From NCBI RefSeq assembly GCF_033473495.1, contig NC_088941.1, forward strand, positions 1,240,001-1,304,000: a DNA stretch of 64,000 nucleotides, given 5' to 3'. A program made the translations under genes and the position numbers. Of this stretch, positions 14,626 through 43,928 are shown piece by piece. The first letter of the stretch is position 1. Every line of letters begins with the position of its first letter. Source of the DNA: Cercospora beticola (taxonomy: Eukaryota > Ascomycota > Dothideomycetes > Mycosphaerellales > Mycosphaerellaceae). The notes below the pieces were generated by a model. The model searched no databases. It was not told the origin of the DNA and worked only from the letters and a program-made list of their open reading frames with translations.

Positions 14626-14709
14626 GGGAAGTGGCTCAAGAACAATGCTTAGCGGGAGGTGATCGCTTGCGGTCATTTCTGGCAAATGCTGGCAACAGTC
14701 TTCCCTTTT
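14626..14709 (+). ncRNA. Family R small RNA, dispersed copy R0 (predicted Pol III)
   Basis: The unit starts GGGAAGTGGCTC and ends CTTCCC followed by TTTT (14,706-14,709). GGGAAG and CTTCCC form the closing stem. Inside are possible hairpins AGCG/CGCU (about 14,651-14,667) and CUG-GCAA-CAG (about 14,688-14,699). A B-box-like GTTCGAATT lies at 14,754-14,762, 44 bp after the T run. It is preceded by TTACTCA. This is the same arrangement as four tandem units at 38.87-39.87 kb, although the middle is different. Overlapping short open frames are not credible proteins. The Pol III assignment is inference from promoter-like boxes and the T run. Confidence 0.6.
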
Positions 14710-21344: not shown

Positions 21345-21562
21345 GGGGATGTGGTCCAATGGTAAGATCCTCGCGTTCACTCTCGTAGTGTCCAAGCTCG
21401 CAGGCCGACTAGACACTCGAGGCCGGGTGGGAGCGCGTGTATACACCAATACATGTCGCAAGAAGGGCCTCAGTGGGCGAACAAGCCTGAAAGTCAAAGG
21501 AGCCTGATTGTGAGCCGTTGAATCGGTGCGAAGGGATGCCAGTTCGATTCTGGCCTTCTCCA
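21345..21562 (+). ncRNA. Family U tRNA-like unit 1 (predicted Pol III, long insert)
   Basis: 218 nt. The 5' end GGGGATG pairs with CTTCTCC at the 3' end, as a tRNA acceptor stem with one U-U mismatch and a discriminator A. TGGTCCAATGG is a good A box and GTTCGATTC a good B box. A run of five T begins at 21,566. The anticodon-stem halves CCTCGC and GCGAAGG are separated by about 140 nt rather than a 7 nt loop. In this insert 21,396-21,405 can pair with 21,502-21,515, and 21,414-21,424 with 21,466-21,475. It might be a tRNA with a giant intron, a tRNA pseudogene or a new RNA; the loop gives no sound anticodon. Confidence 0.65.
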
Positions 21563-21670: not shown

Positions 21671-21876
21671 GGGGATGTGGTCCAATGGAAAGATCCTCGC
21701 GCTCACTCTAGTAGTGTTCATGCTCCCAGGGGGATTCAAACACTTGAGGTGGGGTGGAGTGTATGTGAGTAGACCGGTATTCGCTGCGCTGGGGACCTCA
21801 AGAGTAAGCAGTACACCTGGGAGAGCCACGATATTGAATGGTGCGAGGGATGCCAGTTCGATTCTGGCCTTCTCCA
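21671..21876 (+). ncRNA. Family U tRNA-like unit 2 (predicted Pol III, long insert)
   Basis: 206 nt with the same ends as unit 1 (GGGGATG/CTTCTCC, A box TGGTCCAATGG, B box GTTCGATTC) and a T5 run from 21,882. The anticodon-type stem CCTCGC/GCGAGG is perfect. The insert folds into two consecutive 8 bp helices: 21,723-21,730 with 21,816-21,823 (CTCCCAGG/CCTGGGAG) and 21,743-21,750 with 21,795-21,802 (CTTGAGGT/ACCTCAAG). Unit 1 has helices at the equivalent places with different bases, so structure appears to be kept while sequence changes. The base at the tRNA position 33 equivalent is C, unlike real tRNAs. Confidence 0.65.
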
Positions 21877-22084: not shown

Positions 22085-22137
22085 GAGAGCATCAACCGCG
22101 ACTCCAGATCGCAACGCGGCTCGTGGTGGCCTGCTCC
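22085..22137 (+). pseudogene. Decayed family U half unit
   Basis: Only the extreme 3' end GGCCTGCTCCA and the following flank (CCTTTTGCTTCGTGTG, shared with units 3 and 4) are recognisable. The A box is gone and the B box is not conserved. It occupies the place of a missing unit between units 2 and 3, which are 575 bp apart instead of about 310-330. Confidence 0.45.
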
Positions 22138-22245
22138 AAATCCTTTTGCTTCGTGTGTGCGTTTGCTGCTGCCCTTGGCTTTCAGAAAGCTTTGCCTCCT
22201 TTCTGTGCGTACTTGTAGGTCGCGAAAGGCAGCTTTGTCATCACA

Positions 22246-22446
22246 GGGGCTGTGGTCCAATGGTAAGATACCGCGCTGTCTGAGACTAGGGGAAAGTCCG
22301 TTTGAAATGGCGCTCTGTCTAGATTCACAGCATGCTATAGTGCCTCAAAAACACCATAGCACACTAGTCGAGCGACAGAGCTCCATTCGCGGTCGTGATA
22401 GTTGACTTCGGCTCGAGTGATGCCAGTTCAAGTCTGGCCTGCTCCA
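22246..22446 (+). ncRNA. Family U tRNA-like unit 3 (predicted Pol III, long insert)
   Basis: 201 nt. Acceptor-like ends are GGGGCTG and CTGCTCC; compared with units 1-2 the fifth pair changes from A-U to C-G, a compensated change. The A box is TGGTCCAATGG, the B box GTTCAAGTC, and a T5 run begins at 22,451. The insert makes a long hairpin: CCGCG (22,271-22,275) with CGCGG (22,388-22,392), and 22,306-22,319 with 22,374-22,387 in 13 of 14 positions. An extra 25-30 nt lie between this hairpin and the T arm, so the fold differs in detail from units 1-2. Confidence 0.65.
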
Positions 22447-22554: not shown

Positions 22555-22729
22555 GGGGCTGTGGTCCAATGGTAAGATACCGAACCTGCACCGATCGTGG
22601 TTGTCGCGTGGCGACCTCCAGTCTTGTAAGAAACACCGAATGGCGTTTTGAACCTGATAGAAGGCGTCATCCGCAGCATACCAGTCGCGTCGTGGTTCAG
22701 GGATGCCAGTTCGAGTCTGGCCTGCTCCA
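22555..22729 (+). ncRNA. Family U tRNA-like unit 4 (predicted Pol III, long insert)
   Basis: 175 nt, the shortest member. Ends GGGGCTG/CTGCTCC, A box TGGTCCAATGG, B box GTTCGAGTC and a T6 run from 22,733. The base stem CCGAACC (22,580-22,586) pairs with GGTTCAGG (22,694-22,701) with one bulged A. A perfect GTCGC/GCGAC hairpin lies at about 22,602-22,614. The middle is otherwise unrelated to the other units. Antisense frames across all units look like proteins but are only the reverse complement of these conserved ends. Confidence 0.65.
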
Positions 22730-38487: not shown

Positions 38488-38866
38488 AAGCCGAATGCTG
38501 TGTCGATTTGAGGTGGTTTCTTGGAGCCGGGTACGGAATGGCGAGAACAGCGGCCTGGGTGTTGATTGCGGGGACACAGAGGACCTGGTCATACCTAGTA
38601 ACGAATGATGTTGTATAGCATAAATGAAGCACGGCAATGGCGGAAGCCTCGTTTCTCTGAGCCAGTCCAGTGGTCCAGTCCGATGAAGAAAATCTGCCGC
38701 AATGATCAATTGTCGTTACCCGCCGCTGCAGGATACCGCCTCTTGTGCTCGCCGACGTGTCACACATTATCGGACTAGAAGTGGAACACCTGTTGCCAGC
38801 CGTCCTTCTCCGCCAATCCCGATCATGAGTAGCCATCATATGGCAAACAGAAACCCTGCTTATTCA
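38488..38866. other. Intergenic, leading into small-RNA array
   Basis: No gene seen. The last 80 bp (TTGCCAGCCGTCC and AGCCATCATATGGCAAAC) resemble the sequence preceding the later family R units, so the tandem repeat probably starts near 38,790. Confidence 0.45.
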
Positions 38867-38945
38867 GGGAAGTAGCTCTGTTATCACATATTGAGGTTGC
38901 CTGATCACCAACACCCGTCTGCGTTAGTAGGCTCTTCCCTTTTTT
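38867..38945 (+). ncRNA. Family R small RNA R1 (predicted Pol III)
   Basis: 79 nt including a six-T terminator (38,940-38,945). The closing stem is GGGAAG (38,867) with CTTCCC (38,934-38,939). Inside, a 3 bp CUC/GAG arm, GUUG/CAAC and CUGC-GUUA-GUAG give a cloverleaf-like plan. TAGCTC directly after the stem matches the start of an A box. A B-box-like TATTCGATTCC follows at about 38,974-38,984, 29 bp past the T run. TTATTCA precedes the stem. Confidence 0.65.
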
Positions 38946-39140
38946 GGCCTGTCGTCGATTGCGCTGTTCCTTGTATTCGATTCCTGTTGAGGTTCATGTC
39001 TTGTATTTTTGTCCTTCTAGCGGGAATGAGTGCTGCGATTGTGATGTATTCTCTGCACTTTTTGATACGTATCGAGTCGCCGCCGGGAGGTTCAGGGCTC
39101 GCATTGACATTGATGTAGTGAACAGAATTCTGCTGACTCA

Positions 39141-39212
39141 GGGAAGTAGCTGTACTATCAGAGACACATGCCAGAAAGCCATGCCGCCTGCTCAGCAGGC
39201 CCTTCCCTTTTT
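39141..39212 (+). ncRNA. Family R small RNA R2 (predicted Pol III)
   Basis: 72 nt with five terminal T (39,208-39,212). The stem is GGGAAG with CTTCCC (39,202-39,207). Internal hairpins are CUG-UACUAU-CAG, CAUG/CAUG and CCUGC-UCA-GCAGG; the last is one pair longer than in R3 and R4 and uses a different loop. A B-box-like GTTCGATCC is at 39,242-39,250. TGACTCA immediately precedes the closing stem. Confidence 0.65.
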
Positions 39213-39435
39213 GGGAATTGTCATCGATTCACCGCTCGACCGTTCGATCCCCGTTGAAGGCCACGTCTCGTTCTTTTGCCATTCCAGTAGAGATGAGTGC
39301 CACAGCTTTGATGCGATCTGTCTTTCTTTTTGTGACCCATCGCCGCTCCACGTCAGGAATTCCGAACGGAGACCTCCTGTCGCCAGCCGCTCCCGTCGGC
39401 GACCATAACATAGCAGTCAAAATCCTGCTGATTCA

Positions 39436-39510
39436 GGGAAGTAGCTCTGTCAAAGAGTAACTTGTCACCTTAGGGCGACACCCGTCTGCCTAGCAGGCCC
39501 TTCCCTTTTT
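39436..39510 (+). ncRNA. Family R small RNA R3 (predicted Pol III)
   Basis: 75 nt with five terminal T (39,506-39,510). This copy shows the fold best: GGGAAG/CTTCCC closing stem, CUCU-GUCAA-AGAG, a GUC-CC/GG-GAC arm, and CUGC-CUA-GCAG. The B-box-like GGTTCGATTCC at 39,542-39,552 is the best match to consensus in the array. TGATTCA precedes the stem. Confidence 0.68.
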
Positions 39511-39796
39511 GTTCCTCGTTGTCGATTTCGCGGTATTCGTGGGTTCGATTCCATCTTCCAGTGACCACTTGGTGAATTTGTCAAGCACACTCAGTACTCG
39601 TCTCGAACTTTTGCTTCTCTAGTACGAATGAGCGCGGCAGCATCTTAAGTAGCTTTCTTTCTGGGGACGTATTGTATGGTGTCGCCGATAGGGATTTTGA
39701 GCGTGGCTGCCTCTTGACTCTCGCCTGTCGCCAGCCGCTGCCTCCCGTCTCTCCCGCGCATGACCTTCATGTAGCAAACGAAATGCTGATGACTCA

Positions 39797-39866
39797 GGGA
39801 AGTAGCTCGAACAGAATTCTTGCAATTGCCAGCAAAATCCGTCTGCCTAGCAGGCCCTTCCCTTTT
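39797..39866 (+). ncRNA. Family R small RNA R4 (predicted Pol III)
   Basis: 70 nt with four terminal T (39,863-39,866). The stem is GGGAAG with CTTCCC (39,857-39,862). Internal hairpins are GAA/UUC, UUGC/GCAA and CUGC-CUA-GCAG. The B-box-like GTTCGAATCC is at 39,901-39,910. TGACTCA precedes the stem. A further T5 run lies at about 39,923, so a longer transcript is also possible. Confidence 0.65.
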
Positions 39867-39910
39867 GGTCTTCGCTGTCGCTGCTTCGTGCTGCCCATGA
39901 GTTCGAATCC

Positions 39911-40218
39911 GCTTCCAGCTCTCTTTTTGCACTTTTGCACTTTTGCCAGGCCACCACTCAAACCCCTACCACATTCACTTGAGCAGCCAGTCCTGATTCT
40001 GGAACTTTGATGCAATCGCATGCTTGATATTCATGTCCAAGCAATAGCCAATCATTTCATTTTGATCCTGGGTATCTTCTATTCATCACGCACATCAAAA
40101 CGCCACCTGCGATCCCAGCAAAACGCCTCGCCATGCCTTTGGTATTGCAGCATATATTTTCTTCACCGTATCTTCTCATTTGAACTGTTTTCGTCTCTTC
40201 CCGATCGAGTTCTGTATT
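39911..40218. other. Intergenic, nothing further recognised
   Basis: About 300 bp between the R4 B box and the 3' end of the OXR1 gene. Confidence 0.35.
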
Positions 40219-41265
40219 CTATGATCCCACATACCAAATTTCGACTCCCATGATATCGAATTTGCTCCCTTCTTCACTCAAAGGCTCATTGCCAAAGGTG
40301 GGACACGTCGCACTCACGCCATTACCCAAGCTTTGGTCCAGCCACAGCCCGTAGTGTCCATCTCCTCCGCCCACGCTGAAATAGTCCTGCTGGCAGAAGA
40401 TGGTGAAGTCGTTCTCGCCAGTGTAAGGAAACGCTTTGAAGCGTATTCTTTCAGGTGTTGTAGTCCCATTCTTGTGTCCGTTTGTTCCTGGCACTTTCAG
40501 TGAGGCAAGGGATGCACTACTATCTGTCCTCGGCACGCCGATGGTGGTCATGCGCTGCGCGTGTGTCGTGTCTTCGCTCGGCGGTGGTGGGAGATCCATG
40601 AGATCGGGCAGAGCGGGCAAGGTCATTGCTCGCCAGAGGAAGCACTCGCCATTGCCATAGTAGTGAGATTGAGGTTTAGGTGGGTCGGAGAGGTATGCGC
40701 CGAAAACACCGCCTGATGCATCACGCACCACCACAACGAAGCCTCCGCGCTTGCCTCGGTATGGGTCGCAGAGGTTGTACACAGTTGATAGTGTGCTGCC
40801 ATTCTGGTCAATGGAGTATATGAGGTGCCATTTCTCTTGCAATTGCAATCGTGGAGGGATCAGTAAGCGGATCTCCTCGGCTACAGCTTTGCGTAAGAGC
40901 TTCGCCTTGTGGCTGGTGCCATGTTTGTAGCCTTCTAATGTCAAGGGAGTAAGAGGCGGAGGTTGAAAGGGCGATCGCTTGCGAATGGGTTGCTGTGGCG
41001 GGTGGTAGACACCGGTCGTGGGATCAGTCATGGAGCCGTTGTAATTTGCGCTGAGAGCTTTGGCCAGCGGAGTGGGGGCTTCGTCCTCGCTGATCCTGCG
41101 GAAGAGAGATGAGGTGGTGTATCGGACGGGCTCGGCGAAGTAGGAAAGCGTAGAGAGAAGCGGATTGGAGAGACGGTTGAAATTATTAGGAGCATGTGTC
41201 GGAGGGCGAGGAGGGTCAGAGGGAGCGGAGGAGGAGGAATCGCGGTGTGCGGTGTCGGTGGACAT
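40219..41265 (-). CDS. OXR1: Oxidation resistance protein 1 (TLDc domain)
   Basis: Single exon, 348 residues. The N-terminal 100 residues are Pro/Ser-rich and contain the linker LSNPLLSTLSYFAEPVRYTT seen in fungal OXR1 proteins. The TLDc domain covers about residues 120-348: LIPPRLQLQEKWHLIYSIDQ, HGSTL-type NGSTLSTVYNLC, FGAYLSDPPKPQSHYYGNGE, CFLWR, then FTIFCQQDYFSVGGGDGHYG and GLWLDQSLGNG. OXR1 family proteins protect against oxidative stress and, in yeast, promote disassembly of the vacuolar V-ATPase. All family landmarks are intact. Confidence 0.93.
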   Translation of the reverse strand: MSTDTAHRDSSSSAPSDPPRPPTHAPNNFNRLSNPLLSTLSYFAEPVRYTTSSLFRRISEDEAPTPLAKALSANYNGSMTDPTTGVYHPPQQPIRKRSPFQPPPLTPLTLEGYKHGTSHKAKLLRKAVAEEIRLLIPPRLQLQEKWHLIYSIDQNGSTLSTVYNLCDPYRGKRGGFVVVVRDASGGVFGAYLSDPPKPQSHYYGNGECFLWRAMTLPALPDLMDLPPPPSEDTTHAQRMTTIGVPRTDSSASLASLKVPGTNGHKNGTTTPERIRFKAFPYTGENDFTIFCQQDYFSVGGGDGHYGLWLDQSLGNGVSATCPTFGNEPLSEEGSKFDIMGVEIWYVGS

Positions 41266-42287: not shown

Positions 42288-43928
42288 ATGTCCATGTTAC
42301 CTCTTCAGACACTGTCGTACCTTCCATGGGTCGTGTTGCTTGGCTCCATTGGATGGGTGCTTTACGTGCGCTTCCTCCATCCTCTCGCCGGTGTTCCGGG
42401 CCCGCTCTTGCCATCCCTCACGCGCTTGTGGTATGTATGGAAGATCAGGGAGGGTTCCTTCGACGAAGTCAATCGTGATCTGCATCGAAAGTATGGAAGA
42501 TTGGTCCGCATTGCTCCCAACGAAGTCAGCGTCAGTGATCCAGAGGCTGTGACGTTGATATACGGAATCAAGTCGAAATTCACCAAAACAAACTTCTATC
42601 CAATTTGGAAGCCAGATGCGTTTGCCACGAAACATGCCGATCAGTTCACAGACCTCGATGAAGCCCATCATTCAGCTCGCAGACGGCTGTTGAGCAACAT
42701 ATACTCCATGTCTAGCGTCCTCGAATCCGAGGCCCATGTGGATGCATGCACAGAGCTTTTCATGGCGAGGCTCTCGGAGTTTGCAGCAAACGGGAAAGTC
42801 TTGGACCTTGGCACCTGGCTGCAAATGTACGCATTCGATATCATCGGAGAACTTTTCTTCGGCCAGGCTTTCGGCTTCTTGGAGACGGGATCTGATTTTG
42901 GCCGTTGGATTGGCACGCTGGACCGTTTGATGCCAGTACTGATCGTGGTTGCGATGCTACCCAATGCCTTCCGCCCATTCTATCTCATCTTCTGCATCAT
43001 GTTCGCTTCGACGAGAGCATCGCTGAAGGACTTCGAAGGCGTTGCGACCACTGCCAAGAATTACGTTGGTAGGCGCGAGGACATGATGAAAAGCGAGGAT
43101 ATCGAAGCCTCGGCAAGCAATAAACGTCGCGATATTCTGACCAAGTTGTTTGAGCTCAGAGCCCACAGAGGCGAAAAGGAAGACTTTGGCATCGCAGATA
43201 TCCAACAAGAGGGTTATGTCAACATTTTAGCCGGCTCAGATACGACCGCGATCGCCATGCGTGCCATCATCCATCAGCTCTTGACACACCCTGCCGCGTT
43301 GAACAAGCTCATGCAAGAATTGGAAGAGGCATTGCATGCTGGCAGGATCTCGCTGCCAGTCAAATTTTCGGACGCTTTAAAGCTTCCGTACTACAGCGCT
43401 TGCGTTAAAGAGGCCATGCGACTCCATCCCAGTGTTGGACTGGGCTTGCAAAGACACCCTCTTCCCGAAGGATGTGAAATCGCCGGAAGGTACTTCTCGG
43501 GATCGAAAAGCGTTCGTGTCGCGATCAATGCTGCTGTACTCCACTACGACACAGACGTATTCGGCTCTGATGCTGCAGGCTTCTCTCCTGAAAGATGGCT
43601 GGCTCCTGGTGCGGCAAACATGGAGGTATGTTGCAGATTGCATCTGCAGGACATTCGCTGATACTTACAACAGCGATATCTTTTGACCTTTGGCGGAGGC
43701 AGCAGGTATGTATTGTTGTTAATAGATCGCAGGAACTCTCTTGACTAATCGTACTCTCGCAGAACTTGCATCGGCAAGAACATATCTTTGTCGGAAATCT
43801 ACAAGATGCTCCCGCATCTGTTGCTCAAGTTTAAACTGGAATTGGCATATCCAGAGAAGCCGCTGAAGAAGAGCGATTGGTGGTTTCACAAGCAGGAAGG
43901 ATTGCTTGTGCGTTTGTCAGTAAGATGA
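42288..43928 (+). CDS. Cytochrome P450 monooxygenase
   Basis: Three exons: 42,288-43,625, 43,674-43,705 and 43,763-43,928, giving 511 residues; introns are 48 and 57 bp. An N-terminal membrane anchor (about residues 10-30) precedes the GVPGPLLPS hinge. The I-helix is AGSDTTA (about 315), the K-helix KEAMR has Glu 375 and Arg 378, and the haem loop FGGGSRTCIGKN places the ligand at Cys 459. The 32 bp middle exon carries the first part of the haem loop. The sequence is of the group often labelled pisatin-demethylase-like in ascomycetes. There is no secondary-metabolite cluster around it, so the substrate is unknown. Confidence 0.92.

Follow-up and report, generated by a model that had tools for sequence, protein, structure and literature searches.

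Animal vault and Y RNAs are short RNA polymerase III (Pol III) RNAs with paired ends and a 3' oligo-U tail, which occur as few paralogues with variable middles, and vault RNA genes have their B box inside the RNA. In filamentous fungi, Pol III RNAs of small size other than the housekeeping ones have been little described.

In yeast, according to excerpts of one report, SNR6 combines a TATA box at -30 with an extragenic B box located 3' of the terminator (PMC9136082). In Neurospora, the main loci of microRNA-like small RNAs (milRNAs) are Pol III-dependent and have T-runs, and milR-1 is described as having no predicted A or B box in the excerpts of the corresponding report (PMC3547838).

Here we describe a family of short RNA units in Cercospora beticola, four of which are arranged in tandem. 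The reading that we favour, at a probability of about 0.7, is a Pol III non-coding RNA (ncRNA) family with a split promoter of the U6/SNR6 type, a fixed scaffold, and a placed, variable stem-loop. No description of this family was seen among the matches listed in searches of open-licence PMC papers, and we take the RNA family as undescribed and its genes as genes of a known kind.

Tandem array of four RNA units

In the window, i.e., the whole stretch of 64,000 nucleotides that was analysed, a scan found four exact copies of GGGAAGTAGCT, all on the + strand and starting at 38867, 39141, 39436, and 39797 (spacing 274, 295, and 361 nt). Each copy opens an RNA unit (referred to as u1 to u4 respectively) that ends with a 3' hairpin, CTTCCC, and a terminator-like T-run. 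Measured without the T-run (for u1, from GGGAAG to CTTCCC), u1 spans 38867..38939 (73 nt), u2 39141..39207 (67 nt), u3 39436..39505 (70 nt), and u4 39797..39862 (66 nt), and the T-runs on the same strand are T6 at 38940..38945, T5 at 39208..39212, T5 at 39506..39510, and T4 at 39863..39866 respectively. The common start GGGAAGTAGCT, the CTTCCC end with T4-T6, and the differing middles that the initial annotation had described were borne out in all four window units. Its count of five copies has to be corrected, as the window contains four and the genome six.

Conservation along u1-u4 is uneven. In u3 coordinates, mean pairwise identity in the 5' flank is 33% at -90 to -41, 58% at -40 to -13, and 79% at -12 to -1; within the RNA it is 100% at +1 to +11, 33% in the middle, and 88% over the 3' hairpin, stem, and T-run; and 3' of the RNA it is 51% up to the B box, 73% in the B box, and 44% beyond. 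The gene-like parts of the four units are held, and the remainder has drifted. The middles align near the level of shuffled sequences (pairwise score z 1.1-2.3 over six pairs), and in the u1-u2 comparison, the middle did not diverge significantly faster than the spacer (Fisher P 0.16).

Copies of the family in the genome

Six copies were found in the C. beticola genome, namely the tandem u1-u4 and two dispersed members, u5 on the minus strand of contig C2 (locus L006) and u6 on contig C3 (locus L008). The window is part of contig C7, and its ORF at 42288-43661 shares 100% identity with a C. beticola protein. RNA length across the family is 57-77 nt, and both GGGAAGTAGCT and CTTCCC are invariant in all six copies. 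The 11-mer GGGAAGTAGCT alone is not rare, with 24 exact genome matches vs. 37 for its reversed control. Searching with both ends, the pattern GGGAAGYRGYN{38,68}CTTCCC gave nine genome matches vs. three in the control, six of the nine being the family, and a second pattern of this kind gave 13 vs. seven, among which exactly the six family members were found. The search for copies relied on sequence patterns and on a DNA query, and would have missed any copy with an altered terminal stem.

The DNA search with u3 as the query matched u3, u4, and u1 only, and did not recover u2, u5, or u6. When GCAGGCCCTTCCCTTTT was searched with up to two mismatches, five of the nine genome matches (vs. seven in the control) belonged to the family, and no family-like start was seen at the four others (L027, which was read, and L026, L028, and L029, which were scanned by script). 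The middle of u1, the one middle that was queried genome-wide, has no second genome site at up to three mismatches. A further candidate, GGGAAGTGGCT at 14626, has CTTCCC in range, but the B-box-like site close to it lies on the opposite strand, and it was dropped as a copy.

Promoter-like elements and probable Pol III transcription

A Pol III B-box core, TTCGANNCC, is located downstream of the RNA in 6/6 copies, starting at +110, +103, +109, +106, +97, and +97 in u1 to u6 respectively, which leaves 36, 35, 38, 39, 19, and 39 nt between CTTCCC and the core. The B boxes of the array, all downstream of the RNA on the + strand, are TATTCGATTCC at 38974..38984 (u1), CGTTCGATCCC at 39241..39251 (u2), GGTTCGATTCC, an exact consensus match, at 39542..39552 (u3), and AGTTCGAATCC at 39900..39910 (u4). 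Between stem and B box, u1-u4 have their T4-T6 directly after the stem; u6 lacks a T-run directly after the stem, but has T4 at +70 ahead of the B box, and u5, with its B box also downstream of the stem, has only T3 ahead of it.

Additional T-runs, often CTTTTGC, are present 3' of the B boxes of u1-u4 on the + strand (39006-39010, 39274-39277, 39609-39612, and 39924-39928), and are perhaps back-up terminators. By eye, the B boxes of u5 and u6 sit between short segments that are complementary to each other (TCGTG..CACGA; AAGTCG..CGACTT), with T-runs after them, and read-through at these two genes could extend the RNA by an additional 3' hairpin.

The core TTCGANNCC occurs in none of six look-alike loci, examined out of seven non-family matches to both ends (the match on C9 was left out). 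Its background of 18 in 2 x 100,391 bases translates to about 1.3e-3 per copy for +97 to +110, a figure that includes the family's own sites and a range chosen after the copies were seen. Taken as a class, B-box-like sites show no enrichment in the window (39 vs. 42.6 expected), and neither does the class GTAGCTN{82,105}TTCGANNCC in the genome (28 matches, six of them the family, vs. 72 in the control); the case therefore rests on the fixed place of the core in copies that are defined by both ends.

Upstream, a TATA-like motif near -30 is clear by eye in u5 (TTTATAATG) and u6 (TTTATATGG), and degenerate in u1-u4, where the + strand stretches at -30 are CATATGGC (38837..38844), TGATGTAG (39111..39118), TAACATAG (39406..39413), and TCATGTAG (39767..39774) respectively. 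TAGCT, which is similar to the first bases of an A box, is found at +7 in 6/6 copies; the remaining A-box consensus fits poorly in u1-u4, and we take the A box to be partial.

For comparison, the genome's own U6 gene, identified by its only match to RF00026 (U6) at 3146896-3146997 on the minus strand of C2 (locus L018), has CATATATT at -31, T6 at +99, and a B-box-like TTCGAATC at +213. A B-box-like CGTTCGAATCT in this gene lies 108 nt past T6 (core position), and the layout is like that of yeast SNR6.

Judged by these elements, the family members are very probably Pol III genes. They look like genes with a split promoter of the U6/SNR6 type, and not like tRNA genes, because the B box lies outside the RNA, a TATA-like motif (degenerate in u1-u4) is located near -30, and the elements follow one another as they do at the own U6 gene. 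The suggestion made in the initial annotation, that these are short Pol III transcripts and not ordinary tRNAs, is thereby well supported at the sequence level, mainly by features that it had not cited.

The row of B boxes could alternatively matter as DNA. TFIIIC boundary sites are known in yeasts, and the array may represent a TFIIIC-binding cluster that acts as a chromatin boundary between its neighbouring genes, with the RNA as a by-product. Its four B boxes lie within about 0.9 kb, in a gap bounded by the end of an apparent + strand gene near 38488 and by that of a - strand ORF at 40219, the two being apparently convergent. A boundary would leave unexplained, however, why RNA ends, 3' hairpin, and T-run are kept, and why u5 and u6 occur as single dispersed copies with the same ends, and we consider this explanation unlikely.

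Predicted RNA fold

Taken singly, the shuffle-tested folding energies of u1-u4 are mostly unremarkable (z -1.66, -1.46, -3.42, and -1.07 respectively). The terminal stem is predicted in 6/6 copies (mean pair probability 0.87-0.99), and the 3' hairpin in five of the six (0.89-0.99), the exception being u1, where it is not favoured (0.05). Within u1-u4, changes in the 3' hairpin are one-sided, with both sides altered in 0/14 consensus pairs, and the compensation between these copies that had been claimed for this hairpin is of the wobble type only. Over all six copies, its second pair is U-G, C-G, U-A, or G-C (pairs were counted by hand because MAFFT misaligns the u6 hairpin), and the sole two-sided change, in u6, hinges on the u6 alignment.

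A middle hairpin with four Watson-Crick pairs and a loop of 8-10 nt is present at one place, 2-5 nt 5' of the 3' hairpin, in 5/6 copies, and its stems are all different (GUUG/CAAC, CAUG/CAUG, UGUC/GACA, UUGC/GCAA, and AGAG/CUCU). With the choice of geometry allowed for, none of 2000 dinucleotide-shuffled sets reached this hairpin in five copies, and for u1-u4 alone P is 0.001. P was also computed under 32 further settings with 600 sets each, and ranged from 0 to 0.69; stems of 5 bp give no signal (P 0.47-0.69), and when wobble pairs are allowed and real window DNA serves as the background, P lies at 0.03-0.58. The geometry fails in u5, which instead forms at this place a hairpin of 5 bp with a loop of 3 nt. 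The middle hairpin is not favoured in u6 (pair probability 0.26, vs. 0.81-0.99 in the others). The folding energy of the whole middle is not unusual (combined z +0.5), and a 5'-anchored hairpin, corresponding to a D-like arm, is unsupported (2/6 copies, P 0.41).

The predicted fold that we accept has a terminal stem and a 3' hairpin; one middle hairpin, fixed in place but free in sequence, is added to it with moderate confidence. A full cloverleaf was not accepted, since its 5' (D-like) arm is unsupported, and the term cloverleaf-like was an overstatement. Three hairpins had been proposed for each middle, of which one middle hairpin is retained (in 5/6 copies), a common first hairpin is not, and the last is not favoured in u1. 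A maintained fold may be spoken of for the terminal stem, for the 3' hairpin in copies other than u1, and with moderate confidence for one middle hairpin, and not for the full cloverleaf.

The predicted stems also bear on whether Dicer or a different nuclease might cut the family RNAs into microRNA-like small RNAs. With two Dicer_dimer matches in the genome, a route through Dicer would be available. The usual Dicer substrate is far longer than the 4-6 bp of these stems. The main Neurospora milRNA loci, being Pol III-dependent and having T-runs, would favour such precursors, whereas milR-1, with no predicted A or B box in the excerpted report, speaks against them (PMC3547838). Overall, this explanation appears very unlikely.

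Relation to tRNA genes and other known RNAs

At default settings, ARAGORN called no tRNA in the window (the array was run without the intron option), and Rfam gave no match at 38500-40200 up to E 10, which together rule out an ordinary tRNA. With no Rfam match in the array, U6 snRNA and a known Rfam RNA are likewise ruled out. A Y RNA with Ro60 was rejected, as an exon-wise search for TROVE/Ro60 gave no match in the genome (the control was positive in 1/14 genomes); a search for the major vault protein also gave no genome match, but none of the control genomes was matched either.

A second tandem array in the window consists of tRNA-shaped genes on the + strand at 21345-21562, 21671-21876, 22246-22446, and 22555-22729. 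Their 5' end reads GGGG(A/C)TGTGGTCCAATGG.. and their 3' end CCAGTTC(G/A)A.TCTGGCC(T/A)(T/G)CTCCA followed by a T-run, and long inserts occupy the place of the anticodon loop. ARAGORN makes four calls here when introns are allowed (introns of 104-133 nt, four different anticodons), and the Rfam tRNA cut-off is reached by the last gene only (29.5 bits). A decayed tRNA-shaped copy, noted by eye, may be present near 22100-22150.

That the family itself consists of functionless decayed tRNA genes or tRNA-derived repeats, as its GGGAAGTAGCTC start (which we take to resemble a tRNA acceptor and A box) and the tRNA-like array about 16 kb away might suggest, is highly improbable given that neither ARAGORN (default settings) nor Rfam (E<=10) makes a call, that drift affects middles and spacers but spares ends, T-runs, and B boxes, and that just six copies were found.

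Proposed scaffold and variable stem-loop

In the favoured reading as a Pol III RNA family, ncRNAs of 57-77 nt would be transcribed from the four tandem genes and from one gene each on C2 and C3. Their split promoter would comprise the B box outside the RNA (past the T-run in u1-u4), together with TAGCT at +7 as an A-box-like element and a TATA-like motif near -30. The invariant 5' and 3' ends would close the terminal stem adjoining the conserved hairpin, and would form, with the 3' oligo-U, a fixed scaffold. Fixed ends and an oligo-U tail suggest common partners, and La together with one or more further proteins presumably binds this scaffold. Between the ends, a stem-loop of 4 bp with a loop of 8-10 nt would be kept in place while its sequence changes completely. 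We infer that the RNA functions as a protein-bound scaffold showing a variable loop; most likely, the scaffold would carry an RNP shared by all copies, and the loop particular to each copy would either make a specific contact or vary freely. Our confidence in this mechanism is much lower than that in the genes being Pol III genes.

It is conceivable, and in our estimate unlikely, that the family is a fungal display system of paralogues, in which one Pol III scaffold (terminal stem, 3' hairpin, oligo-U) has been multiplied in tandem and each copy has its own loop of 8-10 nt, borne on a stem of constant position and variable sequence and pairing with a different short RNA target. If true, the array would amount to a few RNAs that act in trans as guides or as antisense RNAs.

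The signature of both ends and a downstream B box provides a handle for finding the family in other Dothideomycetes. Furthermore, with its fixed ends, putative U6-type split promoter, and placed sequence-free stem-loop, the family is directly open to tests of expression and of partners.

Comparison with known systems

In size, closing stem, and TAGCT start, the family is similar to tRNA genes. Unlike these, it has a T-run after a closing stem of 6 bp, a 3' hairpin whose loop of 3-4 nt stands where a tRNA has its T-loop, and no consistent 5' arm. Its likeness to animal vault and Y RNAs is one of plan only, and the family differs from them in having no Rfam match.

Like the Neurospora Pol III milRNA loci, the family is fungal and would give short transcripts ending at T-runs; it differs in that neither an A box nor a B box is reported as predicted for milR-1 (PMC3547838), and in that its own stems have just 4-6 bp. 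Compared to the own U6 gene, where 108 nt separate the T-run from the B core, the distance from terminal stem to B core is only 19-39 nt in the family. The order of elements is like that in this U6 gene and, by the available excerpts, in yeast SNR6 (PMC9136082), i.e., a TATA or TATA-like element near -30, the RNA, a T-run, and then a B box outside the RNA.
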